DNA of 20,782 bases from a virus. The stretch lies in IMG/VR virus record IMGVR_UViG_3300018038_000059, positions 1 to 20,782 of that record. One strand, given 5' to 3'. Positions 3 through 19,250 of this stretch are shown one piece after another. A program made the translations under genes and the position numbers. Position 1 is the first letter of the stretch. Each line of letters starts with the position of its first letter. Below the pieces are notes generated by a model, which saw only the letters and a list, made by a program, of their open reading frames with translations, had not been told where the DNA came from and ran no database searches.

Positions 3-722
3 CTTGGAGGAAGAATCTCAAGACATTCAATTCTTGCAAGTCAACTTTTTAATATCAACCTCGCCAACTTTGATAAAAACAAAACACATGCAATGGAGTA
101 TTACCTTGCAAAGAAAACAAGATATGCAGGAAGTTATGGGATGTGGGGCAATACAATGTCAGAGCAGCTTGCTAAGGAAGCTCATTTTTTTCCTAAGCAA
201 GTTTGTGATGAGCTTCTGAAAAAATTCCATGCAGCCGAGCCTCTTATTATAAATGTTTTTCAGAGATATATTGAAAACAATCTAAACAAAACAAAGTGCC
301 TAAAAACTCCCATAGGAAGAGTGAGATATTTTTATGGTCTTAGAAGCTTTTCAGATAACAGTAAAATATATAGAGAAGGCTATAGCTACATTCCTCTATC
401 TACTACTGGTGATAATAATGGGCTTGCTATTCTTTATCTCTATCCTTTTACTAACTCTATTTATGGTAGTGGAGAATTGGGTGGACAAATTATCCAAGAA
501 GTCCACGATTCAACTACCTTAGAGGTAGATGATTCTCTTAGCAATGTTAAGAAGTCAATGGAGTTTTTAAGACAAGCTTATCACAGAAAGATAGTTTTTG
601 AGAATGGTTTTGAAATGGAAATTCCTATAGAGTTTGAAATTGGCTATTCTCTTGGTTCTATGAAAGCTTTTAATACTGAACAAGAACTTGATATTATTTA
701 TCCTTTTCTAAACAAGAACTAA
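3..722 (+). CDS. Family A DNA polymerase, C-terminal part (5' truncated by window edge)
   Basis: Replicative DNA polymerase of the Pol I family; only the last 239 residues (end of the polymerase domain) are inside the window. The reading frame is open from base 3, so the ATG at 93 is internal, not the start. Visible landmarks: a DIH-like segment at residues 4-18 (RISRHS...ASQLFNI), motif B/O-helix KKTRYAGSYGM at 37-47, a GRVRYFYG segment near 105-112, and motif C QEVHDS at 165-170 containing a catalytic Asp. Motif C reads HDS rather than the cellular HDE. Motif A and any 3'-5' exonuclease domain must lie upstream of the window. It is followed after 9 bases by the helicase gene, which fits a replication operon. 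The family assignment is firm; the subfamily is not determined. Confidence 0.9.
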   Translation, partial: LGGRISRHSILASQLFNINLANFDKNKTHAMEYYLAKKTRYAGSYGMWGNTMSEQLAKEAHFFPKQVCDELLKKFHAAEPLIINVFQRYIENNLNKTKCLKTPIGRVRYFYGLRSFSDNSKIYREGYSYIPLSTTGDNNGLAILYLYPFTNSIYGSGELGGQIIQEVHDSTTLEVDDSLSNVKKSMEFLRQAYHRKIVFENGFEMEIPIEFEIGYSLGSMKAFNTEQELDIIYPFLNKN

Positions 723-731
723 AGTGCAAAA

Positions 732-1943
732 ATGCCCAGACAGCTAAAGAGTTCATGGATAGATACTTATGTCAATTCAATTATTCCAAGCTCAGATGCT
801 CCAGAAAATTTTCATTTTTGGTCGGCAGCTACTATTGTATCTGCTGCTTTGCGTAGGAATATATACTATGTAAGAGGCGCTCGTAAGCTTTTTGCCAATT
901 TATACACTATTCTTGTTGCTCGTCCTGGTATTGGAAAAGGTGAGAGTATTATTCCAGCAAGTGTGATTTTGGAGAAAAGCAATACCGCAAATATGCTTGC
1001 TGATAGGCTTACAATGCCTCATATTATTAGTAGAATGCACAAAGGATTTCAAAGAATAGGACAGAATAGCATAGGCTTTGACCACACAGCTTGTATGTTT
1101 GCTGAAGAGCTTAGTACTTTTATGCGAGCTTCAGAAGAAGAGCTTGATACTCTCAATCAATTATGGAACTCCCCAGATAAATATGGAGCAGGAACAGTAG
1201 CAAGGTCAGATGAGACTATTGAGAATCCAAGTTTTGTATTACTAGGAGGAACTACTCCTAAGTGGCTTTGTAGAAGCATTCCAGAACATGCAGCCGGCGG
1301 TGGTTTTACAAGAAGAGTTAATTTTGTGTATGCTAAGAACAATTCTAAAATAACTCCATTTCCTAAGCCTTGGACTCCACCACAAGTTTTAATTGAAGAT
1401 TTAAAACACATGGGTACTTTGCAAGGGGAAATGGTTTTGACACAGGCAGCGATTCCGGTGTTTGAAAAGCTTTACAAAGAATGCAAAGTAGAAGATGATT
1501 TTGATGATGAAACTTCGGCTACTTATAAAACAAGCCAGTGGACGAATGTTGTAAAACTTGCTATGGTTCTTAGTATTTGTCAATCAGATTCTATGATGAT
1601 TGATAAGAATACTTTGGTTAGGGCTATTAAGTTAGTAGAACAAGTAAGACATGACCTGGGTTTGGTTTTTAGCTATATAGGAGAATCAGACACAGCAGCA
1701 GCAGGGGCTAAGGTAGTTGAGTTTATTAACAAAGTAACATATGCTACAACTTCTCAGATAATGAGGCATATGTCAAAGGATACAACATATGACATATTAA
1801 CAAATACAATCCTTCCAACATTGGTTCATGCTGGGATTTTGCAGATGCTTAACTTAGGCAATACAACAAAGTACTTTGATCCAATCCACCTTCAAGAGCT
1901 TCAAAAACAACAAGCAGCTAAGGCAAAAGGAGGAACACCTTGA
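732..1943 (+). CDS. DUF3987-like P-loop replicative helicase/ATPase
   Basis: A 403-aa P-loop ATPase resembling the DUF3987/primase-associated helicase group found in phages and plasmids, probably the replicative helicase partner of the upstream polymerase. The nucleotide-binding loop is at residues 63-72 (ARPGIGKGES). It lacks the first Gly and the usual Ser/Thr after GK, but GKG variants are known in this group. A Walker-B-like stretch CMFAEELSTFM is at 121-131, a sensor-like FVLLGGTTP at 168-176 and a candidate arginine finger GGGFTRR at 189-195. The last ~70 residues look like a winged-helix domain that could bind DNA. No primase domain is present. No clear ribosome binding site precedes the ATG, so coupling to the polymerase stop 9 bases upstream is likely. 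The family call rests on motif order. Confidence 0.75.
   Translation: MPRQLKSSWIDTYVNSIIPSSDAPENFHFWSAATIVSAALRRNIYYVRGARKLFANLYTILVARPGIGKGESIIPASVILEKSNTANMLADRLTMPHIISRMHKGFQRIGQNSIGFDHTACMFAEELSTFMRASEEELDTLNQLWNSPDKYGAGTVARSDETIENPSFVLLGGTTPKWLCRSIPEHAAGGGFTRRVNFVYAKNNSKITPFPKPWTPPQVLIEDLKHMGTLQGEMVLTQAAIPVFEKLYKECKVEDDFDDETSATYKTSQWTNVVKLAMVLSICQSDSMMIDKNTLVRAIKLVEQVRHDLGLVFSYIGESDTAAAGAKVVEFINKVTYATTSQIMRHMSKDTTYDILTNTILPTLVHAGILQMLNLGNTTKYFDPIHLQELQKQQAAKAKGGTP
1926..1933 (+). promoter_or_regulatory. Ribosome binding site that fixes the TTG start at 1940
   Basis: AAAGGAGG lies inside the end of the helicase gene, six bases before a TTG codon that overlaps the helicase TGA stop (TTGA). 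No ATG lies nearby in that frame, so this strong site is the main reason to accept TTG as the start of the 98-aa gene. Confidence 0.7.
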
Positions 1944-2236
1944 ATCTACATGTTTGGTATCCGACAATTCTTAAAAAAGACCATGTTTTATGCCTAACAG
2001 ATTTTTTTACTAAAATGGTCAAAAGAATTGTAGCCGGGCAACTTAGGTATGAAAAACAAGGACCTACTTCATACTTAAAATGGTTAGAGCAAGAAACAAA
2101 AGCCTATAAAAAAACAGGTAATTCAGAGCATCTAATCAATGCTGCTAACTATGCCTATCTAGAATCAGTATTTCCAAGTCATCCAAAATTTCATTTTGAC
2201 CCAACAGCAAAATCAATAAGGAGAAAAGAAAGCTAA
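1940..2236 (+). CDS. Hypothetical phage protein, 98 aa, TTG start
   Basis: Not assigned to a named family. It starts at TTG overlapping the helicase stop, supported by AAAGGAGG six bases upstream. The protein is soluble and probably helical, with no Cys pair or membrane segment. The central part (about residues 34-76: basic GQLRYEKQ, then KWLEQETKAYKKTGNSEHLI followed by NAANYAYLE) has the general look of small phage proteins with a TGN.EHL..AANYA signature that occur in replication/nucleotide regions, but I cannot attach a function. The C-terminus is basic (KSIRRKES). The stop overlaps the next ATG (TAATG), so it is translationally coupled to the GroES-like gene. Confidence 0.7.
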   Translation: MNLHVWYPTILKKDHVLCLTDFFTKMVKRIVAGQLRYEKQGPTSYLKWLEQETKAYKKTGNSEHLINAANYAYLESVFPSHPKFHFDPTAKSIRRKES

Positions 2237-2709
2237 TGGCTAAAACAACCTCAGAAACTTTTGTGGATAAGAGAAGGATTGGGAAAGCAGAAGCTAAGAC
2301 TATCTGTTCTTGTGGTGAAAACTATGTAATGGAAGACTCAGAATTTTGTAACCTTTGTGCAAATAAATTAGTAAAACAAGCACAAGAAGAAAACTACCTA
2401 ATCCCCCTCCAAGCAGTCGGCGCTCGCATGTTCGTAAGAAACGATGATTCAATGATTCGATCAGGTATGATTTATATCCCTGACAATGCCCAAAGGAGAT
2501 CGACAATTGGAGTAATTATTAATCTTGGTCCTGATATTCAGAATCAAGATTTAAAGCTGGGTATTAGAATTATGTTCGATCAATATGCTGGAAGGGTAGT
2601 AGAAATAAGAGGATACAAGAACATAACTCTTGTAAGAGAAGATGAAGTACTTGCAATTGTAACTAAGAGCCTGAAGGAAATTGAAGAAAGTAGTGCAAGC
2701 AATGGATAG
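2236..2709 (+). CDS. GroES-like co-chaperonin with N-terminal zinc ribbon
   Basis: Residues about 54-143 follow the GroES/Cpn10 chain from end to end: an opening strand LIPLQAVGARMFVRND, a mobile-loop region with the GroEL-binding hydrophobic patch GMIYIP (77-82), the RSTIGVIINLGP turn (88-99), LKLGIRIMFDQYAG (106-119) and a closing EDEVLAIV (135-142), which matches the GroES SDILAIVE end. Phage co-chaperonins such as T4 gp31 replace host GroES so that host GroEL folds the phage capsid protein; a similar role is inferred here. Unlike ordinary ~97-aa GroES, it has about 50 extra N-terminal residues holding C24-x-C26 and C38-x2-C41, a likely zinc ribbon, plus a ~14-residue polar tail. It sits in the early/replication operon, apart from the capsid genes, and starts within a TAATG overlap; AAGGAG lies 12 bases upstream. 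Confidence 0.85.
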   Translation: MAKTTSETFVDKRRIGKAEAKTICSCGENYVMEDSEFCNLCANKLVKQAQEENYLIPLQAVGARMFVRNDDSMIRSGMIYIPDNAQRRSTIGVIINLGPDIQNQDLKLGIRIMFDQYAGRVVEIRGYKNITLVREDEVLAIVTKSLKEIEESSASNG

Positions 2710-2878
2710 TCAAGAGAGCACACAGTCTAGTGATCCCATTCACGATTTGGCACACGAAATTGCCAACATTAAAGCATACAGTCCTGCACTGCTTTTTTAT
2801 GAAACCGTGGAGGTCATTTATGGGATTCTTAAGTCGTCACCTTTGTTAAAAGATGATGCTCAGTTCTTTAGTAGTTAA
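2702..2878 (+). CDS. Small hypothetical protein, 58 aa
   Basis: Last gene of the plus-strand operon, of unknown family. The ATG at 2702 overlaps the end of the GroES-like gene by 8 bases. A TTG at 2681 would add 7 residues (MKKVVQA) but is less convincing. The first ~12 residues are polar (Gln/Ser-rich); the rest is probably two helices, DLAHEIANIKAY and LFYETVEVIYGILKSS, ending in QFFSS. There is no Cys pair and no clear membrane segment. It is followed by the bidirectional hairpin terminator. Confidence 0.55.
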   Translation: MDSQESTQSSDPIHDLAHEIANIKAYSPALLFYETVEVIYGILKSSPLLKDDAQFFSS

Positions 2879-2906: not shown

Positions 2907-2941
2907 AAGGCCAGCCCAGTATCTAGCCAAGCTGGCCTTTT
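2907..2941. terminator. Bidirectional intrinsic terminator between converging operons
   Basis: A perfect 9-bp inverted repeat, AAGGCCAGC (2907-2915) and GCTGGCCTT (2931-2939), encloses a 15-base loop. On the plus strand it runs into TTTTCATTTTATT. On the minus strand it runs into TTATTTTTTTG (complement of 2898-2908). Both directions therefore have a stem followed by a U-rich tract, right where the plus-strand replication operon and the minus-strand virion operon meet. Confidence 0.85.
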
Positions 2942-3313: not shown

Positions 3314-5278
3314 TTATTGATTCTGCCCACTAAAAATCTCACTGAAAGCACTCTCTACTTTTCCAATTCCCTTGTTTAAAGTATTTGTAATAGCTCCTTT
3401 CTCCAAGAAATTCTTTTTCTTTGGCTGGCCGAATATTTCATGTGTTGCAATAGGACCAACAAAAGGTGTGTGGCTTACTAAATATCTTTCTCCTGCTTTT
3501 TTAAACTTATCCAAATTTCCTTTAAAAGCAGCATTTCCCACATCCCATACTTGTCCTGCTTCTTGACCAAAAGGCCCTAGCAGAGATTCCAAAGCCATTG
3601 TCTTATCTCCATAAGACAAAGCCATCATAGCATCATACATAATAGGAAGGCCAATGCTATAAGCAATGTTATCTATTGTCCTTTCAAGCACAAACTTCTT
3701 CCACTTTTCAGGAGAATCCATATACTCCCCTGGTCTTTGTTTCAAATTTCCATATTTAAGCCAATTAGAAGCATCTGCAACAGCCTCTCCTACCATTGGA
3801 TAGATAGTTGCAAAATACATAAGTGGTCTTAAATTCCCTTGTTTTGCAGGCTTTGCAATGAAATCATTTATAAACTTTCCTGATTGAAATTGCATTTTTT
3901 TATAAAGAAATAAAGCTCTGCCAAGAGCACCAGTTTCAAAACCTTTAGCATTACCAATAGCAACTCTCCCACCTCTTGCCATAGTAGGCAAAGTAGAAGC
4001 ATCTCCCCTATACTGTGTAATATCAGAAGTTCTCTTTGCTGCCATTAACTTATCTCTTTCATCAAGACCAGATTTTAAAGCCTTATCTGGATCAATATGC
4101 AATTCATGAAAGTATTCTCTAATCCATTTATTTGTAGGATCTTTTTTCAACTTAGCCAAAGCATCTTCTACAAAATTTCTTCCAGCAATTGCTGAGAATA
4201 TTCTTCTTTGTTTGTCTAGATAATTTGCTCCATTATACTTCATGATATAAGCCCCAGGATCTTGCATAAACTTCGGCATCTCTTCCATCCTAAGAGCTTT
4301 CATTGTATGATAGTATCCTGCACTAGATTTTAAAGCAAATTCTCTAGCTTCTGGTTCTCCGGTTACAAAGTCATAAACAGTTTTAGCAAAAGGCTTTAGT
4401 TCACTAAAAAAAGCCTGACCAGTATTAGCCTTTGCTGCATGAATTAAAGGATTGAACCATTGTCCTATATGTCTCATAGGACTTAAAGAAAGATGGCTAG
4501 TTATCATATAACTATTTGTACGTTTTTCAACATTGGATTTAGAACTCATAGGCTCTTCATTCCAAGGTTTAAATCTTTCTACAAGCTCTCCAGTTTCTGG
4601 GTTTATGGTAGGAATTAAATATGTTTTAATCCTTCTACCAAGATAAGCTTCTGTTATGTTCTTCGCATAAACCCAATCCATTCCAGAGCCAGTTTCTTTT
4701 TTAATCCCATCCAAGGCTCTTGCCACATTTTCATCATTCGGACCAAACATCTTATGTTCAGTTAAAACATGAGAAGAGTCAGAATAAAACTTAGCAAGAC
4801 TTTCTACAGCATGTTTGCCTTCATAGCTAGGAAAGTTTGTTTTGTTTGCTTGTAAATCTTTTAATATATCTCTAGCACTGCCATTGCCTTGCATAGAAGC
4901 TTGAGTTAGTTCAGTAACAGTACTGCGAATATTTGGAGCCTCTTGTTGCAATAAACCATGCAACTTCGATCCGGGCTGGACTCCTGTAGTAATTCCTTTC
5001 TGTACATAATCATTCAAACTGCTAAGTTCATCTTTAGAAACTTTACCCAATCCATTTAAAAGCCTGGACGCGTGTTGTTTGGAGAAATTAGTCTCTGCCT
5101 CTGGCAAGGCTTTTTCAAGCATGTCTTTAAGCTTGGGTCCCCATTCTTTGGACATGTTTGTAATAGTTTTAAACTCGCTTCTTCCAAATTCTCTAGCAGC
5201 AAATTCAAAGCCTTCTTTAGCAATATCAGGAATTGCTTTGCTTGCTGCTTCTACAATTGGAGTTACAATGCCTGCCAT
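3314..5278 (-). CDS. Putative internal virion / DNA-ejection protein, 654 aa
   Basis: Large, mainly helical basic protein, third of three consecutive large putative internal virion proteins. The central and C-terminal part (about 320-560) resembles a family seen in phage polyvalent or internal virion proteins: a QRRIFSAIAGRNFVEDAL helix near 357-374, then LGRALFLYKKMQFQSGKFI (452-470), then KQGNLRPLMYFATIYPMVGE (479-498). The hydrophobic stretches about 484-500 and 537-553 could insert in a membrane, as expected for a protein that helps DNA cross the cell envelope. No lytic transglycosylase or nuclease motif was seen. The start is shared with the upstream stop (TAATG) and preceded by GAGGAG. 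The role is inferred from position, size and composition. Confidence 0.65.
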   Translation of the reverse strand: MAGIVTPIVEAASKAIPDIAKEGFEFAAREFGRSEFKTITNMSKEWGPKLKDMLEKALPEAETNFSKQHASRLLNGLGKVSKDELSSLNDYVQKGITTGVQPGSKLHGLLQQEAPNIRSTVTELTQASMQGNGSARDILKDLQANKTNFPSYEGKHAVESLAKFYSDSSHVLTEHKMFGPNDENVARALDGIKKETGSGMDWVYAKNITEAYLGRRIKTYLIPTINPETGELVERFKPWNEEPMSSKSNVEKRTNSYMITSHLSLSPMRHIGQWFNPLIHAAKANTGQAFFSELKPFAKTVYDFVTGEPEAREFALKSSAGYYHTMKALRMEEMPKFMQDPGAYIMKYNGANYLDKQRRIFSAIAGRNFVEDALAKLKKDPTNKWIREYFHELHIDPDKALKSGLDERDKLMAAKRTSDITQYRGDASTLPTMARGGRVAIGNAKGFETGALGRALFLYKKMQFQSGKFINDFIAKPAKQGNLRPLMYFATIYPMVGEAVADASNWLKYGNLKQRPGEYMDSPEKWKKFVLERTIDNIAYSIGLPIMYDAMMALSYGDKTMALESLLGPFGQEAGQVWDVGNAAFKGNLDKFKKAGERYLVSHTPFVGPIATHEIFGQPKKKNFLEKGAITNTLNKGIGKVESAFSEIFSGQNQ

Positions 5279-6813
5279 TATTTTTCTCCTCTGCCCCTTG
5301 CCATTTCATTCAAAAACTTCTCAAGATTATCAGTTTCTTGTGGCCCTGTTTCTAAAAGCTTTGGCTTTGCTTCACTCATTCTTAATTTCAATCTTTCAAA
5401 AGCATTCCTTCCAGGCTTGCCTTTTAACTTCTCAGCAAGTTGCTTGCTAGGATTCAAAGCATCACTAGCTTTTTGCAACTTATCTACAGCCCTAATAGCA
5501 TTGCCTTGAGGCTCTTGGAGAGCACCAGAGATATTGGCATCAGTAATTTTACCTTTAGTTTTTTTCCAAACTTTAGGAACTTCTAAAGTAGTACCAGCTT
5601 CAGCATCCTTTGCTTGTTGTTTAATTAAATCCTTAACTTTGGCTCCATGTTCTCTAACCTGTGACTCTGTCATTTTTGTATTATCTATTACAAATTTAAC
5701 AAAGTCAGCGTCTCTTTTAGATTTAGTAGCTTGCGCAGATATGTATGAAGCTTTATCTATATCAGAAGCAAAATTAAGCTCAAATCCTTTTCTCCCATAA
5801 GAATATCTTGGTTTAGCACCAGAAAGCTCTTGAGGTAATTTGCCTTTTACTTGTTTTACTGTTGCCCCTAAAGCCTTTCCTTCAACCTTCGGTTCTTCTT
5901 TTGCTTTATTTATAATTTGATCAATTTGTACTTTTTCATGTGCAAAAGGATCATCTTTTACAACCTTTTCAGTTGCTTCTTTTACTTGTTGCTTAGCAGT
6001 TTGCAAAGTCTCTTCTAATTTTGACAAAGCATCTTTACCAGCTGTCTCTGCCATTGGCCCTGCTTTTTTACCAAATTTGCTTGCTAACTTTCCAAGTATC
6101 CCTCCAAGTCCCATTCCTGTTGCAGTCATTCCTGCAAATTCTTTTGGAGTATCAGAAAAAGGAATTGCTCCTGCTGAGTTATGAATTAAAGATTTAACCA
6201 AACCTGGAAACTTAGTAGCTCCTGTTAAACCTTCGGCTACTTTTTCTATCGGCCTTCCTGGAATACTTTGTCCAGCCATTTCAGCTAACTTCGCCTTAAT
6301 AGGATTTTCCTCTTCATAATTACCACTAGCAATCTTTGCCTTTTCTGCTTGCTTGTCAAGTAATCTTCTTATAATATTATTGGGTCCAACTCCTAATCCT
6401 ATTCCACCTACTTTAGCTACATTACTAGCCCCTTCCATTAAACCTTTAGCAGCAGAAGGAATAAAAGAATCTGCTTCACCGGCTGATTTATTTCCTTCCA
6501 TACCAAATTTTGCTTGGTGCTGAGGAGGTTGTGAACCAAAGTCTGAAATTGGTTGCAGTTTATCTGCAAGTTTTCTACTTAAGCTATCAGATTCATTTGT
6601 TGTAATTTGACTAGACCCTCTCTGCACACTTCCAGAGTATCTTTCTTTAAAAGCTTTCTTTGCTTGTTCTACTTGGCTTGGGTCAGTTTTTAACCTAGGC
6701 TGCACAAATTTCTCAAATATCCTATCCATAAACAAATCAGCCTTTGGAGAAGCAAGGATCTTTGCTTTCTTCTTTGGATCAAGAACATCGAGAAGTGTAT
6801 AGTCTTGAGGCAT
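5278..6813 (-). CDS. Putative internal virion protein with a polyvalent-protein-associated domain, 511 aa
   Basis: Lys/Ala-rich, mostly helical, low-complexity protein with one recognisable module at about residues 333-402: KPRYSYGRKGFELNFASDID followed by KASYISAQATKSKRDADF. This matches the look of the small domain that recurs in phage 'large polyvalent proteins' and other injected phage proteins (YxxGxKxFxLxFxSDIDKAxYI...KSKRDA). A Gly-rich, weakly hydrophobic patch (about 128-143 and 226-250) precedes a coiled-coil-like stretch (about 255-300). The ATG is one base after the stop of the 538-aa gene and has no evident ribosome binding site, so it probably depends on coupled translation. A packaged or injected protein is the best guess. 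Confidence 0.6.
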   Translation of the reverse strand: MPQDYTLLDVLDPKKKAKILASPKADLFMDRIFEKFVQPRLKTDPSQVEQAKKAFKERYSGSVQRGSSQITTNESDSLSRKLADKLQPISDFGSQPPQHQAKFGMEGNKSAGEADSFIPSAAKGLMEGASNVAKVGGIGLGVGPNNIIRRLLDKQAEKAKIASGNYEEENPIKAKLAEMAGQSIPGRPIEKVAEGLTGATKFPGLVKSLIHNSAGAIPFSDTPKEFAGMTATGMGLGGILGKLASKFGKKAGPMAETAGKDALSKLEETLQTAKQQVKEATEKVVKDDPFAHEKVQIDQIINKAKEEPKVEGKALGATVKQVKGKLPQELSGAKPRYSYGRKGFELNFASDIDKASYISAQATKSKRDADFVKFVIDNTKMTESQVREHGAKVKDLIKQQAKDAEAGTTLEVPKVWKKTKGKITDANISGALQEPQGNAIRAVDKLQKASDALNPSKQLAEKLKGKPGRNAFERLKLRMSEAKPKLLETGPQETDNLEKFLNEMARGRGEK

Positions 6814-6814
6814 T

Positions 6815-8431
6815 TTACTGATTCATTGTATCTAGTAAATCTTTATCTACAATACCAGACTGTGCTTTATCTGCAAGATCCCTAGCTTGCTGTGCTTTCT
6901 TTTTCAAATCTAAAACAGCAGGATCATCAGTAGCTTTTGGTGAAGCACTTGCACTACCTTTCATCAGCTCAGTAGCTTGCTTTTCATAAGCAATAGCAGC
7001 ATCAGAATTAATCTTAGAAGCAAGCTGCAATTGTTTTTGCCCGTTACCATTAATCACAGCCTCTCTATACTTCTGCATATCTGCTCTTTGTTCTTCTGCA
7101 ACTTTAATACGAGCATATTCAGGACCAGCTCTCATTTTCTCAATATCTGCTTGATTTTTCATTTGAGATTCAGCAAGCTTTTGCTGTTGCAAAAGCTGTC
7201 TATTCTGCAATTCAAGCTGTGCATTAAACTGTACCTGATCTTGTTGCATTTTCTTCTCATCAAGAGTGAGTCTCTTATTAGCAACTTCAATCTGCTTAGT
7301 CTCAGCAGGAGTAGCTTGTAAACTAGCTGCAATTCTAGCAGCAGCTTTTGTTTCATCAGTATCTAAAGGACCAACAGATTGCTGTTTTAAATACTCTGGA
7401 TTATTCTGCATCTCCTGTATCTGCCTCTGTTGAATCATCTGTTTAATAACATCATCAGGAGCTTGTTGCATTGTAAGAGTCTTTGGTTGTGGCAATTGCT
7501 GATTATTTCCTTGCTGTCCACCCTGTCCGCCCATCAGTTTTGCTTTAAGCATCTGCAATAAATTCTGCTTCTGTTGTGGATTCTGAGCTTGTGCAGGATT
7601 AGGAGCACCAGATGGAGAGCCTTGCATGTTCATACTTGGCTGCCCTGCATTGCTACCAGGCTGACCCTGGGAAGGCTGTCCACCCTGTGGACTCCCACTT
7701 CCCTGACTTTCCCCTGTCATTTGCTTAGCCCTGTCCGCAGTAGCAGCCTGCACAGCAGCTAATTCAGGACTCATTTGAGGTTGCTTCTTATTCTTATTCT
7801 GCTTCTGAGCCTCTGCATCTTTTTGTTGTTGTGTTTGGTATTTATATAAATCCATTCCTGCTTTGTGGAACTCTTTCCAATTGTCATCCACGATTTTATT
7901 AGCTGTGTCATAATCTTTATTTTCAACAGCTAGAAAGTAAAGTTTTAGCTTGTATTCCAAATCTGCTTTCTTCTTCTCAAAATCTTGTTGCTTCTTTTGA
8001 TTAGCTTGGTTTATAACATTATTAAAAAGCTGCTGAGCAACAGCACCAGTTCTTGCTTGCTTATTTGCAAAACTAGAAGGCAGATTATTTTCAGGAGTTT
8101 GAATTGCCTGACTGCCTCCAGGATTTCTAGGCATTGCTTGTGTAGCTCCAGGAATACCAGAACCTGCAACACTTGGTTTTGCTTGCCCACCAGCAAGAGC
8201 CATCGGTGTACCTTGCTTGCCTGCAATATTAGTAGGTGATGCTACAACTCCAGGAATCCCTGGAATTTGTGCTCCTGTTGCTGGTCCTCTTTGTCCTTGT
8301 TGTTGCTGCTTAGCCTGTGCAAGCTTTGCTAAAAGAGCAAGCATTTGCTGTGTTTGATCTTGTTGATTAGGAGCAGTTCCAGGAGGAAGATTAGCACCAA
8401 GACCTATAATTGGATTAGCTGGTGTTGACAT
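6815..8431 (-). CDS. Gln-rich putative internal virion/ejection protein, 538 aa
   Basis: Strongly biased composition. Residues 1-140 are Pro/Gly/Gln-rich and disordered-looking. Residues 141-210 form a charged helix with a clear core, DLEYKLKLYFLAVENKDYDT. Residues 240-320 are a second GQPSQGQPG-type linker. Residues 325-470 are again helical and Gln-rich (QLELQNRQLLQQQKLAESQM), probably coiled coil. No catalytic motif. A good AGGAG precedes the ATG. Its place between two other large low-complexity proteins, downstream of the adaptor and nozzle genes, parallels the P22 gp7/gp20/gp16 and T7 gp14/15/16 ejection sets. That analogy is by position and composition, not by visible homology. Confidence 0.6.
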   Translation of the reverse strand: MSTPANPIIGLGANLPPGTAPNQQDQTQQMLALLAKLAQAKQQQQGQRGPATGAQIPGIPGVVASPTNIAGKQGTPMALAGGQAKPSVAGSGIPGATQAMPRNPGGSQAIQTPENNLPSSFANKQARTGAVAQQLFNNVINQANQKKQQDFEKKKADLEYKLKLYFLAVENKDYDTANKIVDDNWKEFHKAGMDLYKYQTQQQKDAEAQKQNKNKKQPQMSPELAAVQAATADRAKQMTGESQGSGSPQGGQPSQGQPGSNAGQPSMNMQGSPSGAPNPAQAQNPQQKQNLLQMLKAKLMGGQGGQQGNNQQLPQPKTLTMQQAPDDVIKQMIQQRQIQEMQNNPEYLKQQSVGPLDTDETKAAARIAASLQATPAETKQIEVANKRLTLDEKKMQQDQVQFNAQLELQNRQLLQQQKLAESQMKNQADIEKMRAGPEYARIKVAEEQRADMQKYREAVINGNGQKQLQLASKINSDAAIAYEKQATELMKGSASASPKATDDPAVLDLKKKAQQARDLADKAQSGIVDKDLLDTMNQ

Positions 8432-8440
8432 TTAAATCTC

Positions 8441-10477
8441 CTATTGTGTAGGCCAAAGGAAGTTGATTAAGTTTTGAATTTCAAGATCATTAATAGACTC
8501 TCCACCTAGTATTACAGAACCATCACCATTAGCACCACCACCACCTGCTCCTAAGCTTTGCAAAAGCATCAAAGTAGCAAGTTCAGTAGCAGTACCCCCA
8601 ACTCCAGAATTAACATTTGGAATATTAGCATTTACACTTCCTACTGGCTCACTACTATTTTGATTCGGTAATACAGTAGAATTAGTTTGCATTGCATTCA
8701 TTAAATCAGCAAGACTTGTTCCAGTAGCCGGCCCTGTATTTGAAGCAACAATTGGATTCTGAGAAGAATAAACATCCTGTTGTGAATTACCTGAATTTCC
8801 TTGGCTTCCTTGGTTTGAAACAATTCCTGTACCAGCTGCTCCGCCTAAGCCTAAAAGAATTGAAAGAATGCTACCAAATCCTCCGCTACCACCTAAAGGA
8901 TTTTGTGCAGAATTTGAACCAAACAAACTAGAAACTAAACCACCAAGCCCTGCAAATGGGCTTGTACTACTACCTTGGGTATTTAAACTAAGCAATCCAG
9001 GCAATAAAGCTCCTAACAAACTAAGACCAGTTTGATTATTAACAGTAGGCGGATAGGTTTGGCTAGCACTTTGTTCATTACTTAGCAATGGATTAGTCTG
9101 TGGCAAAGTAGCATAAAATTCATTTACAAGTCTATCAATGCTATTTTGGTCCAATGTTTGTAATTGATTCCCAAGTGTATTTGCTTGATTTGTTAAAGTT
9201 GTTCCACTTGCAAGAGAATTAGCAACATTCTGAGTATTAGTACCAAGAATGCTTGTATTAGCAGAAAGCATATTCTCAACAGCTGTCTGCATAGCAGTAG
9301 TCTGTGCTTGTGTCAAAGCAGCATTCTGACCAAGAGCAGTTTGCTGATAGTAATTTGCAAGAGCATCTGCATTAATACTGCTATCAATATTCCCACTAGC
9401 AGCATTCTGTCCTTGTAACAAAGCAGCATTCTGTGCAATATTCTGTTGCTCAGAAGCAACCATAGCTTGCCAAGCAGGAGTTTGGTCAATTAAATCTCCT
9501 GTAGAAGCAAGCTGCTGCAGCCCAGATGGAACTTGAATATTATTATTCCCTTGAGCACTTTGCATTAACTGGCTCAAATAAGGAGTACCAGTAGTATTCC
9601 CTGTTTGCAAAGCCTGGTTTAAATTACTAAGCAGAGTCTCCAAAGGAGCACTCAAACTCCCAGGATACTGAGGAAGTCCTGTGCCTATTTGACTTTCCAA
9701 ATAATCATTTAAAGCATTTGTAAGATTCGGATCTTGTGTTGAAACAATACCAAAAGCATTATTCAAAGCACTTGTAATTGTAGGAGTACTTGCTCCTTGT
9801 CCTGGTGCAGTTGGAGTTCCAGAACTTCCACTTCCTCCTAAATTATATCCAAACAATGAAAGTAATTCTTCAAGTGAATTTAAATTAATCCCAGTCCCTG
9901 TACCAGCCGCATTTCCTCCAACTGAAGTTTGATTACCTAAGACTGTAGGTAAGCTGCCTTCAGAATTTGTAGGAGCACCTAAAGTAGCTCCTCCCGAAGC
10001 ATCACCACCTGGCAAAACACTAGACCCTGCAACTACTGGAGGCAGTAAAGTAGCAGGCGGAGGTGTAGTATTTGGCGGAGTATATCCAGCATTGACATTT
10101 GCAACACTATCCAAACTCCCAAAAGGATTAATAGCAGTCTCAGCACCAGAGTATTGCTGAATTAACTGATTAAACTGCTGTAATTGCTGCGGATTCAAAG
10201 CAGCAAGCATTCCATTCCAAGACTCTGGAGTATATCCTACCGTGCTACCAGAAGACCATTGATTTGAAGCAATTCCAGGAGCGCTAAAAACACCATTAGT
10301 CTCAGTAACCTGTGGAGCATTTTGCATCAAAGACATTAACTGCGCCCAGTCAGAAGTCCCAGCTTGGGCTGCTTGTCCAACAGTACCATAAGCTCCATTT
10401 TGAGTAGTAGAGGTATTGCTAAACAAAGTAGCAGGATTTGTAGAAGCCCCAAGATTTGGAAAAGCACCACTTGCCAT
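8441..10477 (-). CDS. Asn/Gly/Ser-rich putative ejection or tail protein, 678 aa
   Basis: First and largest of three consecutive low-complexity virion candidates. Residues 1-330 are Asn/Gly/Thr/Ser-rich with a Pro-rich linker (130-150). Residues 330-450 form amphipathic helices with the pattern MVASEQQNIAQNAALLQGQN followed by AASGNIDSSINADALANYYQ, a style common in phage tail or injection proteins. Residues 482-556 are Gly/Leu-rich and hydrophobic (LLGALLPGLLSL, GGLVSSLFG, GFGSILSILLGLGGAAGTG), able to enter a membrane. The tail ends hydrophilic. An excellent AGGAGG sits inside the end of the upstream mini-gene, and the start overlaps that gene's stop (TAATG). It could be the pore-forming member of the ejection complex. 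Confidence 0.65.
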   Translation of the reverse strand: MASGAFPNLGASTNPATLFSNTSTTQNGAYGTVGQAAQAGTSDWAQLMSLMQNAPQVTETNGVFSAPGIASNQWSSGSTVGYTPESWNGMLAALNPQQLQQFNQLIQQYSGAETAINPFGSLDSVANVNAGYTPPNTTPPPATLLPPVVAGSSVLPGGDASGGATLGAPTNSEGSLPTVLGNQTSVGGNAAGTGTGINLNSLEELLSLFGYNLGGSGSSGTPTAPGQGASTPTITSALNNAFGIVSTQDPNLTNALNDYLESQIGTGLPQYPGSLSAPLETLLSNLNQALQTGNTTGTPYLSQLMQSAQGNNNIQVPSGLQQLASTGDLIDQTPAWQAMVASEQQNIAQNAALLQGQNAASGNIDSSINADALANYYQQTALGQNAALTQAQTTAMQTAVENMLSANTSILGTNTQNVANSLASGTTLTNQANTLGNQLQTLDQNSIDRLVNEFYATLPQTNPLLSNEQSASQTYPPTVNNQTGLSLLGALLPGLLSLNTQGSSTSPFAGLGGLVSSLFGSNSAQNPLGGSGGFGSILSILLGLGGAAGTGIVSNQGSQGNSGNSQQDVYSSQNPIVASNTGPATGTSLADLMNAMQTNSTVLPNQNSSEPVGSVNANIPNVNSGVGGTATELATLMLLQSLGAGGGGANGDGSVILGGESINDLEIQNLINFLWPTQ

Positions 10478-10614
10478 TATATCCTCCTAAGTGGACAACC
10501 AATTAAATGTCCGTTTTTAGACTTAACTTCCCAAGGAAGACGAAAGCAATAAGGACATCTTCCTTTTCCAATTTTAGCCAAAAGCTCTTGTGCTTTTTGT
10601 AGCAAAGAACTCAT
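10477..10614 (-). CDS. Zinc-finger mini-protein, 45 aa
   Basis: A short gene filling the gap between the adaptor and first ejection gene. It starts two bases after the adaptor stop, with GGAG nine bases upstream, and its TAA overlaps the next ATG. The product has a Leu/Lys helix (LLQKAQELLAKIGKG), then C20-PY-C23, a short basic linker, H36 and C41, which could make a single C2HC zinc site. The last codons encode the AGGAGG used by the next gene. The family is not recognised; a small DNA- or virion-binding zinc protein is plausible. Confidence 0.65.
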   Translation of the reverse strand: MSSLLQKAQELLAKIGKGRCPYCFRLPWEVKSKNGHLIGCPLRRI

Positions 10615-10616
10615 AA

Positions 10617-11354
10617 CTATGATCTCCAAGCACTAATCCTTCTAATCCTTGGTCTGAGCATATTAGTCTCAGTGCTTCTCCAAGCTTCTCTTTCTCTTTT
10701 CTTCTTTCTTCCTTTAAGCAATCCAATAAGCCCTGGTTGGCTAGGATCACCATAAAGCTGGGATCTTATAGCAGCTGCACTATCATATTGCCCGAGATCA
10801 TTAAAACCTCTAAGTGCAGCTCCGTATACAATAGCCTCCAGCCAATCATTAGGAAGCAGAATTACTGTAGTATTTAAATTTCCAGCAGCATTAAAATAAT
10901 CTGTAATCGGATGTTGCTGAATGCCTCTTGCTTGTGTTTGATAAGCTTGGTCTGGTGTAGGAAAGAAAATAATATTACCCCCAAACCTACACCACTCAAT
11001 AGGAGTTGAAGGGATTGAAGTTTGAAGCTTATCAATTTCCTGATAGTGACTCGGATCAAGCTTCCTAGACTCTGTATTACTAGGATAATCAATCCACAAT
11101 GTAATATCTAACATCGTATCCAGAATCAAACCTGAGCTAAAAAAGTCGGTTTCTGGATATGTATTTGTATTTGCTGTTAGGTTGAAAGTCGGACCCAAAA
11201 CCTCAAGCTCTGCAAAGTCACTTCTAAAATCAGCATCAGAAGCAATTTCAAGCAGAGAATCTCTAATCCACTGATCTGCTAATCCAGTATCAGAAGTTCT
11301 ATTCTCTACTTTTCTAAGCACAGAAGCTTCTAAGTTTTGAATTGTTACTGACAT
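10617..11354 (-). CDS. Head-tail adaptor (connector) protein
   Basis: A 245-aa protein with the layout of the SU10/P22-gp4-type adaptor family that attaches the tail to the portal ring: an N-terminal helix bundle (VLRKVENRTSDTGLADQWIR, then LLEIASDADF), a beta-rich centre (TNTYPETDF; IEWCRFGGNIIFFPTPDQAY at about 123-142), and C-terminal helices (NDWLEAIVYGAALRGFNDLGQYD). The aromatic/PTPD signature is the strongest match. The C-terminus is very basic (RKKKRERE and RPRIRRISAWRS), which may contact DNA or the portal. A weak GGCGGA site precedes the ATG. It is separated from the nozzle gene by two small genes, unlike the usual adjacency. Confidence 0.75.
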   Translation of the reverse strand: MSVTIQNLEASVLRKVENRTSDTGLADQWIRDSLLEIASDADFRSDFAELEVLGPTFNLTANTNTYPETDFFSSGLILDTMLDITLWIDYPSNTESRKLDPSHYQEIDKLQTSIPSTPIEWCRFGGNIIFFPTPDQAYQTQARGIQQHPITDYFNAAGNLNTTVILLPNDWLEAIVYGAALRGFNDLGQYDSAAAIRSQLYGDPSQPGLIGLLKGRKKKREREAWRSTETNMLRPRIRRISAWRS

Positions 11355-11381
11355 AACTATCCGCCTTTGCTTTTTACCAAA

Positions 11382-11735
11382 TTACTCAGTATAAATAAAA
11401 GCATTCCCAGTATCTAACCTAGGAATTTGTACTCCTCCCCTAACCCAACCAATATGCCCGCTTCTTAAAGTTTTAAGATCCGCTTCTCCATGAGCTTCCC
11501 AGATTGTTTGACCTAGAGCATTTTGAACAATTAGAGTATCCAAAGCATTTAAATAATTAGCAAACTCAATCTGAGCAACTTTAATATCAACAGATCCTGT
11601 AGGAGCAATAGTAGCAGTAAAACCATTCCCTCCAATATTATCAGTAGCCTTCTTCCCCCCCAAAGGCTGATCTGGTAGAATTGATGTAGGAGCATCAGCA
11701 GAATTTATAATCCACTGTCTTGAACCAATAGTCAT
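11382..11735 (-). CDS. Small structural protein, 117 aa, function unknown
   Basis: Beta-rich protein with good AAGGAG upstream. It contains a Gly-rich middle (GGNGFTATIAPTGSVDIKVA) and a conserved-looking C-terminal half (DTLIVQNALGQTIWEAHGEA ... GHIGWVRGGVQIPRLDTGNA). No Cys, no transmembrane segment. The style, a small domain with a TD..G..IWE type strand and a final LDTGxAFIY, is common among minor phage tail or decoration proteins. It sits between a tail-like protein and the adaptor, so a minor tail or neck part is likely, but I cannot name the family. Confidence 0.7.
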   Translation of the reverse strand: MTIGSRQWIINSADAPTSILPDQPLGGKKATDNIGGNGFTATIAPTGSVDIKVAQIEFANYLNALDTLIVQNALGQTIWEAHGEADLKTLRSGHIGWVRGGVQIPRLDTGNAFIYTE

Positions 11736-11744
11736 AAGCTCTCC

Positions 11745-12113
11745 TTAGAAAACAAAAATAACAAAAGCCACGCCACTTGTGGCAGTTACTTTAATCTGTG
11801 TTGATGTGTAAGCTGCACTTCTCCAAACATCCCCTGTTGCTCTTTTATCCACAACAAACCAACCAGTAGGTATTCTCATTAACTGATGCACTAAAGTTTG
11901 CTGTGAACCAGTTCCTGTAAAAGATATAAACTGACCATTTATATTACCTTGACTCGGCGCACCGCTTGTATTTGCACCGCCTAAGCTAATATTACTATTA
12001 AAAGCTTGTGCAAGTAATCTCCAGTTTTCTCTAATCTTATTAATAACAAATTTAATATTAGGATCTTTAACATCAGCAGTTTTAATACCTACAAGATCAA
12101 CAGGAATATTCAT
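11745..12113 (-). CDS. Small tail-associated protein, 122 aa
   Basis: An N-terminal helical half (VNKIRENWRLLAQAFN region) is followed by a beta half in which INGQFISFTGTGSQQTLVHQ leads into LMRIPTGWFVVDKRATGDVW and STQIKVTATSGVAFVIFVF. This second half resembles a domain frequent in phage tail hub/fibre-associated proteins (VAHxLxRxPxGFxVxxxD...TxTxIxLxxxxAxxxFxVF). The ATG lies two bases after the stop of the nozzle gene and has no visible ribosome binding site, so reinitiation after the nozzle gene is expected. A minor tail part is the likely role. Confidence 0.65.
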   Translation of the reverse strand: MNIPVDLVGIKTADVKDPNIKFVINKIRENWRLLAQAFNSNISLGGANTSGAPSQGNINGQFISFTGTGSQQTLVHQLMRIPTGWFVVDKRATGDVWRSAAYTSTQIKVTATSGVAFVIFVF

Positions 12114-12115
12114 GA

Positions 12116-13864
12116 TTAAGTACCAAAGTTTGGATTTTTATATTCACTATTAAGTTCATAGATAAAAGCAATTTCATAAATCTTAATAATATTACTATTC
12201 CCATCTACATTAAAAGTAATAGTATACTGAAATTGCAGCCCAGAAAATCCAGCAGTAGAACCTGATGTTGAACTGCCATTAATATTAGGCCCTTCTATTG
12301 GAATTACAGTTTCACATATTTGGCTAGTATTAAAGGTCCCATTAGGCTCAGATAAAATAAGATTTACAGTTTCAGCAGTTTCTCCTCTTTCATTTGTCAA
12401 AGAAAAACCAAGATTAACATTACCAAGCTCTCCCGAAGTAACCCAGTCATTATAACCATAAGTAATTCTGATTCTATCAATTCTCTTATTGTGTTTTCTA
12501 TCTTGAAATACTAAGTTTCCTGAAACATAAGCAGGAGATTCACATTCTGTTGAAGGTAAAGAAGTTCCAGCTCCTGTTCCTAGTTGCCCAATTAAACCAT
12601 TAATATCACCAACTAACAAACCATCAGGATAAGAAAATGCAGTAGGTACTATCTCACCCATAATAACAGGATAAAAAACAGTAGGAGTACCGCTTGCGGA
12701 AAAATCAGGAAAACTATACTTTGTCCAATTTTGCTCATAAAAATTAAAACACCAAGCGTTAAACTTAAGGTTAGAATCTCCACAAAATAACCAATATGCT
12801 TTGTAAGCTTGGCCAAGAGCTAAGTTACTTGTAATAAAGCCAAATATAATAGACCCTGCTAAACTACTTAAACCAGAAGTTAAATCAGCATAAATAGCAT
12901 CTCTAGCCCCTATTCTACTCCTTCCATCACTACTTGGAAAATCACCAATAGGAGTAAAAATGCTACCATTAAAATCCCAAATATTCTCATCTCCTACATA
13001 AACCATTTCCTCTTCACCATAAACAGCAAGTGATTTAGGAAATCTAGTACCCTTTCCTTTGTCTCCAAAAGCATCATAGCTAAAAGGAGCTAAGCCATTT
13101 CCTGTAGGAGACATTTGTGTATAACCACCATGGCGAAGAATATAGATATTGCCATATATCTTCCCCATACCCATTATTGGCCCAAGACTATCTGCAAGAT
13201 TTGTCGCTGTAGTCCCTGGAATTGAAGTACCAGTCCCCCAAGAAGTAGGATCACCTGGTAATGAAGTCATTACCATTTGTGGAAAAGGACCACCAGAGAT
13301 TCCTGCTCCAGTAGCACTTGATACATTTGCTGCTATGCAATAGCTATTAAGCTCCTGTAAGTAAAAAGCACTTGGCGCTGTAGCACTTGCAGGCTGATAA
13401 TCATGTCCAGTATTTCCATCCCAAGTCCAAATAACATCAGCACCTTGACAAAAACAAAGTAGTCCATTTACTACAGTCCAAGAAAGTAAATTACCAGAGT
13501 TAGTAATACTTCCTGTAGAAGGAGTTAATGCAGTCCAGGCTATGGGATTTAATGAAGAAGCATAATACAATTTACCACCTTGAATAACATTTTCATGCTG
13601 ACCACCAATAGCATCAAACCAAGCAGCTATCATTTGTAAATAAGAGTTAGAACCCAAAGTAGCTCCAGTAGCAGCTACTTGTGTCAAAGCAGGTCTTGTT
13701 GTTAAACCTGCTTTATTAAACAGTATATTTCTAACATCATAAAATCCACTTTGTTCAGCCAAATCAGGAGCTACTTGAGATAATATTCCACCAAAAGGTC
13801 CTCTTATAACAAGTTCAGGACTCTCATCTTCAAGCCTTGTAAGCTGTGCTTGTCTGTTTGGCAT
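12116..13864 (-). CDS. Tail nozzle / P22 gp10-like tail protein
   Basis: A 582-aa, almost entirely beta protein. The N-terminus, IRGPFGGILSQVAPDLAEQS followed by GFYDVRNILFNKAGLTTRPA, is typical of podoviral nozzle/stabilisation proteins (gp10 of P22, tail tube B types), which open with a 'variable, then trace each segment back to raw coordinates' fold of propeller blades. Repeated blade-like units follow (NGLLCFCQGADVIWTWDGNT, MGKIYGNIYILRHGGYTQMS, EEMVYVGDENIWDFNGSIFT). The C-terminal third is a beta sandwich. Length fits gp10-like proteins. No ribosome binding site is visible; the ATG follows the 82-aa gene stop by six bases, again suggesting coupling. It would extend the tail below the adaptor. 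Confidence 0.7.
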   Translation of the reverse strand: MPNRQAQLTRLEDESPELVIRGPFGGILSQVAPDLAEQSGFYDVRNILFNKAGLTTRPALTQVAATGATLGSNSYLQMIAAWFDAIGGQHENVIQGGKLYYASSLNPIAWTALTPSTGSITNSGNLLSWTVVNGLLCFCQGADVIWTWDGNTGHDYQPASATAPSAFYLQELNSYCIAANVSSATGAGISGGPFPQMVMTSLPGDPTSWGTGTSIPGTTATNLADSLGPIMGMGKIYGNIYILRHGGYTQMSPTGNGLAPFSYDAFGDKGKGTRFPKSLAVYGEEEMVYVGDENIWDFNGSIFTPIGDFPSSDGRSRIGARDAIYADLTSGLSSLAGSIIFGFITSNLALGQAYKAYWLFCGDSNLKFNAWCFNFYEQNWTKYSFPDFSASGTPTVFYPVIMGEIVPTAFSYPDGLLVGDINGLIGQLGTGAGTSLPSTECESPAYVSGNLVFQDRKHNKRIDRIRITYGYNDWVTSGELGNVNLGFSLTNERGETAETVNLILSEPNGTFNTSQICETVIPIEGPNINGSSTSGSTAGFSGLQFQYTITFNVDGNSNIIKIYEIAFIYELNSEYKNPNFGT

Positions 13865-13870
13865 AAAAAG

Positions 13871-14119
13871 TTAATTCAAATACTCAGCTTCTGCTTTCTT
13901 CCAAGCCTCAATAAATTGTTTCTTATCATTTTCTGTAGCTTCACGAAGACCAGGTAAAATCATATGATCTAAAAAATCTTCGGCTTTAGGCATAGGTTTA
14001 TTATTCAATATAGCATCTTCTCTAACCTGAGCATAAAAATCTCTCAAATTCATCTCAGTAATAGGCTCTGCCGGGTTTTGATTTAAAACCTCTTCCAATC
14101 TTTCTTTTGTAAATTCCAT
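13871..14119 (-). CDS. Small hypothetical protein, 82 aa
   Basis: Acidic, helical protein: KERLEEVLNQNPAEPITEMN at the start, LRDFYAQVREDAI in the middle, and DKKQFIEAWKKAEAEYL at the end. No Cys, no membrane segment, no recognised family. Its ATG overlaps the stop of the PurD-like gene (TAATG), with AAGGAG 12 bases upstream, so its synthesis is coupled to that enzyme. It also immediately precedes the nozzle gene. It could be an accessory subunit of the enzyme, a chaperone for the nozzle protein, or a minor tail part; the sequence does not decide. Confidence 0.7.
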   Translation of the reverse strand: MEFTKERLEEVLNQNPAEPITEMNLRDFYAQVREDAILNNKPMPKAEDFLDHMILPGLREATENDKKQFIEAWKKAEAEYLN

Positions 14120-15420
14120 TAAAGTTCCAAGCTCCTTTTAATCTGTCCAAATCTTTTTTTAAAAACTTGCCCAAGATCAGTTCTATATTGCAAATCAGGC
14201 ACTCTAATCTTCTCAGCTTGCTTTACACAATCATCCATTGTAGCTTCAATTGTTGCCCCACTTGCCATTGCAATGCCTATCATGCCATAACTTGCACTTG
14301 TTACAATTTCTTCTTGGTCATTTAATTTCAAATTATAAGGATAAAAACTCGGCGAAACTAATTTCTTAGCACTCAGCCCAGTAGGAATATCTCCTGTATT
14401 TATAGAATCTTCAAAAGGCCAAGGGCTAATACTAAGTTTTAAACCTCCACCATATCTTCCATCTTGAAAATAAGCTCCTTCTTCTCTAACTTGCCCCTTT
14501 GCTCCATCAGCCAAGAAAGCACCAAGCTCTCCTGAGAGAATTGTCGACAATAAAGTAGGTGTCGCATCATATCCAAATCTAGGGGTAAATTCGAGAGCAT
14601 AAATACTGCCACTTTTACTGTTTGTACTTCCTTGTCCTTCTTTGGCGATGATGGCATTGACATCTAGGCATCCTGTGTATTCGTTTTCTTTGCAAAACTT
14701 GAACATCTTTTCAATAGTCTGCTGTGTCAAAACTGTGCTATCTGTAGTCCAAACAACATTTCCAGAACACCCACCACTTGGACCAAGATCATCATTCATT
14801 AAATGCTTAGTCTCAAGAGTATGATTTCCTGGAAATATTGGCTGTCCTTTGCTAAACCAAACTTCTGTTGAAATATCAATTCCCGGAATAAATTCCTGTA
14901 AAACAAACTCCACATTCCCAGTCACCAGCTTTTTATAATGCTCAAACATCTTAATAAGACTTTCTGAATCTTTAGAAACAAAACTAGGAATATTACCCGA
15001 ATCAGATCCAGAAGGCTTAAATACAAATCTACTATTAGGCTCCTGTTCATTGATAAATGCCTCTGCTTCTTCAAAGCTATTAAAATTCTTGCTAGGTGGT
15101 ACTTTGATCTTATATTGTTTCATTATCTCTGATGCAAACTTCCTATCCATTTCTAGTTTATCTGCTAAGAGCGATCCGCCCAGAACAGGGATTCCATGAC
15201 TTCTAAACACATCTGCTATTAAACCAAACCCTGTACAATCACATATTACAATTTCTGGCTCAAACCTACCAACCTTGCTGAGGCTATCTATTAAAATCCC
15301 CTGTCCAATAGCCTCAGCTTCTGTCCTTCTAGCAAAAAATAAAACATCATTCCCTTCTTCCTGAACTCTGTGTGCAAGTCCAAAACTATCTCCAGCATCT
15401 GAAAGAAAGAGAAATCTCAT
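14119..15420 (-). CDS. PurD-like ATP-grasp ligase
   Basis: A 433-aa enzyme with the complete domain order of phosphoribosylamine-glycine ligase (PurD, GAR synthetase), which joins glycine to phosphoribosylamine using ATP. N-domain: residues 1-85 (MRFLFLSDAGDSFGLAHRV). ATP-grasp: ADKLEMDRKFASEIMKQY (86-103), FVFKPSGSDSG (132-142), VLQEFIPGIDISTEVW (173-188), a Gly-rich loop GPSGGCSGNVVW (213-224), CLDVNAI (251-257) and ALEFTPRFG (275-283). C-domain: GMIGIAMASGATIEATMDDC and the end motif QYRTDLG, like YRxDIG of PurD. E277 and R281 are kept, but the Asn of the EFNxRFGD motif is Thr279 and the following DPE is YDA, so substrate or metal use may differ. It is coupled to a membrane mini-protein upstream (ATGA) and the 82-aa gene downstream (TAATG). 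True purine synthesis is possible, but a different amide-forming reaction is equally open. Confidence 0.85.
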   Translation of the reverse strand: MRFLFLSDAGDSFGLAHRVQEEGNDVLFFARRTEAEAIGQGILIDSLSKVGRFEPEIVICDCTGFGLIADVFRSHGIPVLGGSLLADKLEMDRKFASEIMKQYKIKVPPSKNFNSFEEAEAFINEQEPNSRFVFKPSGSDSGNIPSFVSKDSESLIKMFEHYKKLVTGNVEFVLQEFIPGIDISTEVWFSKGQPIFPGNHTLETKHLMNDDLGPSGGCSGNVVWTTDSTVLTQQTIEKMFKFCKENEYTGCLDVNAIIAKEGQGSTNSKSGSIYALEFTPRFGYDATPTLLSTILSGELGAFLADGAKGQVREEGAYFQDGRYGGGLKLSISPWPFEDSINTGDIPTGLSAKKLVSPSFYPYNLKLNDQEEIVTSASYGMIGIAMASGATIEATMDDCVKQAEKIRVPDLQYRTDLGQVFKKRFGQIKRSLEL

Positions 15421-15593
15421 ATCTTTTTCTCACCTATCATTCTCCCAATATATCCTACAGCAAGTACCACAAGTGTCTTAAGAGTTTCAGTAGCCTCACC
15501 AGGCTTTGCAAATCTCGTCAAAGCCCAAAGAGAAACTAAGAAAATAGTAAGCAGAATTAAAAGATCAAACTTATCCTCTAAAAATTGCTGCAT
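15417..15593 (-). CDS. Small membrane protein, 58 aa (holin-like candidate)
   Basis: A short gene in the gap between the ATP-grasp and XhlA-like genes. The product begins MQQFLEDKFD, then a first membrane helix LLILLTIFLVSLWAL (11-25), a short charged loop (TRFAKPGEATETLK), a second apolar stretch TLVVLAVGYIGRMIG (40-54), and a basic end EKKI. AGGA lies eight bases before the ATG. Its TGA overlaps the ATP-grasp ATG by four bases (ATGA). Two short hydrophobic helices and the neighbouring XhlA-like gene fit a lysis pair, but no endolysin is present in the window, so a virion or membrane role is also possible. Confidence 0.6.
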   Translation of the reverse strand: MQQFLEDKFDLLILLTIFLVSLWALTRFAKPGEATETLKTLVVLAVGYIGRMIGEKKI

Positions 15594-15603
15594 AGTCTAA
15601 TTC

Positions 15604-15831
15604 CTATTTCCTAACCATCCCCATAATTCCTTCAATTGCAGCAAAGAGAAAGAGGATAAAAGCAATAATTCCCATTGCTCTGTTTTGGAAACTTGTTAAA
15701 TCTTCTATCTTGTCAATAACTGCTTTCTGTCCTACTTTTAAATCCTCTAGTGAAGATTCTGTATTTTCTTTCATATTGTAAAAATTAGCCTCCAGTACAC
15801 TAATCCTAGTCTCGAAATTACTCTCAGCCAT
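15604..15831 (-). CDS. XhlA-like coiled-coil/membrane-anchor protein, 75 aa
   Basis: The N-terminal two thirds is a charged coiled coil (ETRISVLEANFYNMKENTES to IDKIEDLTSFQNRA), ending in a single hydrophobic segment MGIIAFILFLFAAIEGIMGM (about 53-72) and a basic tail VRK. This is the layout of XhlA/haemolysin-type phage proteins, which work with holins at the cytoplasmic membrane. An excellent GGAGGAA lies before the ATG. The two-TM mini-protein follows 10 bases later, matching the common XhlA plus holin pairing. An alternative is a spanin-like or tail-assembly membrane protein. Confidence 0.65.
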   Translation of the reverse strand: MAESNFETRISVLEANFYNMKENTESSLEDLKVGQKAVIDKIEDLTSFQNRAMGIIAFILFLFAAIEGIMGMVRK

Positions 15832-15848
15832 AACTTCCTCCGATATTT

Positions 15849-16505: not shown

Positions 16506-16518
16506 TGTGTCCTCCTGT

Positions 16519-16782
16519 TTAAAAATCATCCCACATATTATTGTTAGTATCTGCTCTCTTAATAGCAGTCATGTTTTGAAGCTCAGTTCCTACATCTTCC
16601 AGAACTTCTGTTCTAATCACTGGCATGATATAAGAATCTGGGTTATCATAACAGTGCTCAAAACAAAGCAGCAATCCATTCTGCATTCCCATTTGAGGTA
16701 ATCTATAAGGCCAGCCACATCTATCACAGAAAGACCAGGCACTTATATGCTTTCCTGCTCTTGCTGTAATATGTATTGACAT
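16519..16782 (-). CDS. Zinc-ribbon phage protein, 87 aa
   Basis: Contains FC19-DR-C22-GWPYRLPQM and then GLLLC40-FEH-C44-YDNPDS, a two-knuckle zinc ribbon in the arrangement often seen in small proteins of phage head-tail gene clusters (CDRCGFRY...L..GLxVCxxCxDxRHP). The C-terminal half is polar, with possible Asp/Asn-rich disorder (ADTNNNMWDDF). GAGGT lies upstream of the ATG. It follows the secreted-protein gene and precedes a structural gene. A structural or assembly role is inferred from conservation of this family in virion clusters; no enzymatic motif is visible. Confidence 0.7.
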   Translation of the reverse strand: MSIHITARAGKHISAWSFCDRCGWPYRLPQMGMQNGLLLCFEHCYDNPDSYIMPVIRTEVLEDVGTELQNMTAIKRADTNNNMWDDF

Positions 16783-16808
16783 AAAATTACCTCAATTAAC
16801 AATGAGAA

Positions 16809-17510: not shown

Positions 17511-17517
17511 ATGTCTT

Positions 17518-18612: not shown

Positions 18613-18620
18613 TCTTTTTT

Positions 18621-18640: not shown

Positions 18641-18665
18641 CACAAAATAAAAGCCTAACAAACAA

Positions 18666-19241: not shown

Positions 19242-19250
19242 GTTTATATT

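Follow-up and report, generated by a model that had tools for sequence, protein, structure and literature searches.

Does a single gene in this phage DNA encode a GroES co-chaperonin with an added cysteine module at its N-terminus, and what might the added part do? The window, i.e., the whole stretch of DNA analyzed, is a 20,782-base IMG/VR virus record that represents an incomplete phage genome; the virus is known from environmental DNA alone, and its host class is bacteria. At 2236..2709 (+ strand), an N-terminal four-cysteine module is fused to a GroES (Cpn10) domain recognized by Pfam, in one ORF of 157 amino acids. We read the product as a phage co-chaperonin of the gp31 kind with a probably zinc-binding N-terminal module, and give this reading as a whole a probability of about 0.62. 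That the protein is a co-chaperonin is, taken by itself, highly probable.

The preliminary description had reported a single reading frame of 157 amino acids at 2236-2709, and this was confirmed. A Shine-Dalgarno-like AAGGAG (2218..2223, + strand) lies 12 nt 5' of the ATG at 2236, while no ATG, GTG or TTG in the other frames of 2236-2430 opens an ORF of more than 22 amino acids as a separate GroES start. Since the other-frame starts give at most 22 amino acids, there is no sign that a frame error has fused two genes. GC3 is also the same (0.28) in the module part and in the GroES part. Both observations speak against the fusion being an assembly or sequencing artefact that unites two small phage genes, as does the agreement of the remaining contig with a second record, IMGVR_UViG_3300018043_000004, which is 100% identical to the window, base for base, over 6274-20782 (14.5 kb). 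The artefact explanation draws on the fact that the fusion region is covered by one metagenomic contig only, as the second record starts at window position 6274, and that small cysteine-pair proteins can adjoin phage GroES. One example is viral contig L282 (IMGVR_UViG_3300020202_000083), where the GroES ORF directly follows and overlaps, in another frame, an ORF for a small CxxC..CxxC protein. On balance, we regard an artefact as very improbable.

The gene belongs to a + strand operon that starts in the window with the C-terminal part of a family A DNA polymerase (93..722) and a DUF3987/PHROG 14296 primase (732..1943), both identified by Pfam and PHROG. An ORF of 98 amino acids (1940..2236, + strand, from the ORF list) follows, and its stop codon (2234-2236) overlaps the GroES ATG at 2236, so the overlap makes translational coupling of the two genes likely. 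This 98-residue protein has an internal Met at 2015 as a possible start, and a distant relative in viral contig L077 (29% over 65 residues). The last gene of the operon is a small ORF of 65 amino acids (2681..2878, + strand), which overlaps the end of the GroES gene and has no Pfam match. A hairpin at 2907..2939, terminator-like on both strands (z -3.5), separates the converging operons, and past it lie structural genes on the - strand. Among these we observed an ATP-grasp protein resembling phosphoribosylamine-glycine ligase (GARS/PurD; 14119-15420, Pfam and NCBIfam) and a 654-amino acid protein (3314-5278) without Pfam or PHROG match. The window further contains a capsid protein gene (17647-18612) and a gene for a scaffold-like protein (20042-20770). 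The order of polymerase, primase, small genes and opposed structural genes is common to PaP2, EBPR podovirus 3 and similar podoviruses, with a primase identity to this type of only about 20-27%.

The second record extends 10.7 kb beyond the window and bears terminase-like and portal-like genes there (tblastn with the portal and terminase of Caudoviricetes sp. vir526), which brings the DNA covered by both records to 31.5 kb. No second GroES was found in either contig, and no phage GroEL was recognized among the ORFs read in these 31.5 kb. Host GroEL is therefore the likely partner, though the rest of the incomplete phage genome may contain a GroEL gene.

The identity of the C-terminal part is carried by profile evidence. 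The Cpn10 family of Pfam (PF00166) matches residues 58-142 (2407..2661, + strand) with 39.6 bits against a cut-off of 21.1 (E 5.4e-10), and the same residues are matched by PHROG 3188, 'co-chaperonin GroES' (E 2.4e-7), by 13 NCBIfam GroES models, each under its strict cut-off, and, in sequence, by PDB GroES/Cpn20 chains. This agrees with the original proposal that the C-terminal ~90 residues are GroES, and the profile search suggested there as a check places the GroES part inside the Cpn10 family (39.6 versus 21.1 bits). When the GroES part was scored without the module, the Cpn10 profile score was the same.

The fold was modelled using AlphaFold2 with an alignment (A10) that included 23 GroES sequences from viral contigs, giving a mean pLDDT of 78; with 3 sequences only, pLDDT was 41.5 and the model unusable. 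Confidence was 89-97 over most barrel blocks, 64-72 in the mobile loop, and 52-72 over residues 1-60. The GroES beta barrel, whose absence had been named in the preliminary description as a ground for rejecting the reading, is thus present in the model. The best match among solved structures was T4 gp31 (1g31; Z 11.5, 90 residues, 2.4 A), followed by Thermus thermophilus Cpn10 and other Cpn10s. Matches to Cpn10 and gp31 had Z of 8-11.5, and barrels of the alcohol-dehydrogenase type ranked lower, with Z below 7. An alignment made of GroES sequences biases the model towards a GroES-like answer, and for this reason the profile match counts as the independent evidence for GroES.

Alignment A10 also locates the two functional elements of the domain. 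The mobile loop covers about residues 68-90 (2437..2505, + strand), and its I79-Y80-I81 aligns with the I-I-I tripeptide of most of the 23 viral GroES, within I-Y-I-P-D-N-A here versus I-I-I-P-D-x-A in most other GroES. The loop is near-normal in length, being one residue shorter than in most aligned GroES. At the position of the roof hairpin (2530..2550, + strand), the protein is about 7 residues shorter than full-length GroES. The preliminary description had put the module next to the mobile loop or the roof, and the second of these sites is thus itself reduced here. A short roof is not unique to the gp31 type, as the non-gp31 GroES L368, L379 and L361 from viral contigs also have about 5 fewer roof residues.

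The N-terminal part contains all four cysteines of the protein (24, 26, 38 and 41) within one 18-residue stretch. They form the C-x-C and C-x2-C pairs, 12 residues apart (C26 to C38), that had been described, and the codons of C24-x-C26-G ... C38-x2-C41 (2305..2358, + strand) specify a putative single Zn site. When these residues were shuffled 500,000 times, a comparably tight motif (C-x1-2-C-x8-15-C-x2-C) arose 35 times, and the motif is thus unlikely to be due to chance. Residues 1-57 have no Pfam match and no match to a zinc-ribbon profile, profiles of such short modules being insensitive. In the model, the module has a low pLDDT (52-72), with a helix predicted over residues 39-52 that begins at the second cysteine pair. 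The position of C38 and C41 at the start of this low-confidence helix makes a treble-clef-like knuckle as plausible as a ribbon. Hence, of the zinc ribbon first proposed, the non-random four-cysteine motif stands, and a ribbon is one candidate fold for it. From the motif, a single Zn is probably bound by C24, C26, C38 and C41. DUF7459 (PF24258) was considered as a family for the module and rejected: it scored 21.2 bits against a cut-off of 27, the match vanished when the cysteines were replaced or the module was used alone, and none of 46 records scored above its cut-off.

What is new here is the cysteine module at the N-terminus of a GroES, as phage GroES genes themselves are well established (PMC4294664; PMC5259590) and some pelagiphages have GroES among their core genes (PMC9599517). 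Our searches of the open-licence literature yielded no description of a GroES that bears a zinc module at its N-terminus. We also know of no characterized GroES with an N-terminal cysteine module.

With the whole protein, no relative was confirmed by tblastn in viral contigs (exact-peptide search). Only annotated GroES genes were matched in phages, with weaker matches beginning at residue 38 (23% identity, E 0.5), and bacterial GroES in plasmids, where the two matches checked were ordinary rhizobial groES-groEL pairs. Residues 17-103 (module, linker and loop) gave nothing in phages beyond one chance match of 22 residues, and of 80 viral contigs chosen because they encode a GroES, none had a four-cysteine N-terminal stretch. 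DNA patterns for the cysteines followed by the GroES loop, with either TGT or TGC codons, detected no second in-frame fusion in viral contigs, and a DNA pattern detected none among the matches listed in genome contigs. As these scans require particular codons and the genome contigs were assessed among the matches listed, they do not prove that other fusions are absent. Matches to the TGT pattern were mostly one family of phage DNA primase-helicases, whose zinc region fits the pattern in a different phase. The diversity of two alignments, A1 and A2, was too high for scanning. Foldseek against viral models returned several viral GroES of 125-155 amino acids and one of 200; these are known by length, and some may carry a like module. 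The ORF at L282:2791-3674 has two tandem Cpn10 stretches (Pfam), and from sequence its arrangement with the neighbouring cysteine-pair ORF is possibly a split counterpart of the fusion, or else came up by chance in the pattern search. Other viral GroES (L400-L402, IMG/VR contigs) have a cysteine-free N-terminal extension, MARTIKTKKDKNGNTVHTINGEEYYTIP, and N-terminal additions to viral GroES therefore occur.

These data bear on whether the module does anything. It might be a stabilizing or passive add-on, such as a captured zinc-binding peptide, on an ordinary phage GroES and have no client role. Its small size, single occurrence and lack of relatives in our searches would fit, as would the unrelated N-terminal stretches on other viral GroES, e.g., the cysteine-free one in L400-L402. 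However, a full four-cysteine motif is unlike a random tail, and we consider a passive module unlikely, though a serious alternative.

The position of GroES in related phages can be compared with that in the window. Among 80 viral contigs sharing the primase, three (G019, G039 and G060, all podovirus-like) encode a Cpn10, and this 3-in-80 is a lower bound because many of the records are fragments. In all three, GroES is situated just 3' of a portal-like gene and 5' of a scaffold-like gene; these identities come from the order of the ORFs and the look of their sequences, for the scaffold and the small genes without a confirming profile. In a fourth relative, Caudoviricetes sp. vir526, it is two genes from terminase. 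All four resemble this phage in combining a DUF3987 primase with a phage GroES, but in each of them GroES has no cysteine module and is located beside portal, scaffold-like or terminase genes. GroES is thus an occasional head-region gene in related phages, and its proximity to portal, scaffold or terminase genes links it to head morphogenesis, whereas the gene in the window ends the polymerase-primase replication operon, outside the head cluster.

Four-cysteine zinc modules are frequent nucleic-acid binders. Together with the operon position after polA and primase, this would suit a module that acts as a nucleic-acid or replication adaptor, in a protein that tethers GroEL to replication proteins or works without GroEL. 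Yet the mobile-loop tripeptide serving GroEL binding is retained, GroES is found in the head region of related phages, and an early operon position is equally sensible for a chaperone required ahead of the late proteins. A replication adaptor is therefore improbable.

For the preferred reading, a co-chaperonin with a zinc-binding module, we infer that the GroES domain would assemble into a seven-subunit ring which binds and caps host GroEL via I79-Y80-I81 of the mobile loop. As in gp31, the shortened roof hairpin would give the dome a more open top, so that larger or partly protruding phage proteins could be folded. The clients would most likely be head proteins, as suggested by the position of GroES in the relatives and by gp31; this is by analogy only, because the gene here ends the replication operon. 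The module would bind one structural zinc via its four cysteines and form a small folded knob on each subunit, and the seven extra contact surfaces per ring might serve binding of phage clients or stability of the ring. Whether the module has a specific adaptor or client role is more speculative, and we hold such a role to be doubtful. In its most specific form, the module would be a client-recruiting adaptor in the lid, with seven zinc knobs that bring one specific phage protein to the GroEL of the host, which is similarly doubtful. To our knowledge, client specificity of a chaperonin through such a lid adaptor has not been described.

Phage co-chaperonins such as gp31 are examples of a virus using a modified lid to retune the GroEL of its host. 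A folded module added to such a lid would provide a natural test of whether client selection or modification of the cage can be built into a GroES ring, and the protein could serve as a scaffold for directed chaperonins. Should the module be passive, the protein is a minor domain variant.

Compared with bacterial GroES and the phage GroES of PHROG 3188, the protein shares the Cpn10 domain and the mobile loop motif I-x-I-P-D-x-A, with about 22-33% identity in alignment A10, but differs by its 57 N-terminal residues with C-x-C/C-x2-C and by its shorter roof. T4 gp31 is likewise phage-encoded, has the GroES fold and is the best structural match, and its roof loop is missing or short. We know of no four-cysteine N-terminal module in gp31. 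Folding of T4 gp23 requires gp31, whose missing roof loops are thought to aid in handling gp23 (PMC6318259). The mobile loop of gp31 is longer (22 residues; PMC6318259), and as the loop here is GroES-sized, we do not file the protein as a gp31 orthologue despite its gp31-like roof. Neither His nor Cys occurs in the C-terminal tail, TKSLKEIEESSASNG, which thus lacks an extension of the type found in Helicobacter pylori HspA, a GroES that carries an extra metal-binding segment with cysteines (PMC7840056; PMC6271281). HspA is a host protein, and its extension is C-terminal, rich in His and Cys and nickel-binding rather than an N-terminal four-cysteine module. Although it differs in type and is located at the opposite terminus, the HspA segment shows that an added metal-binding segment is possible on GroES.
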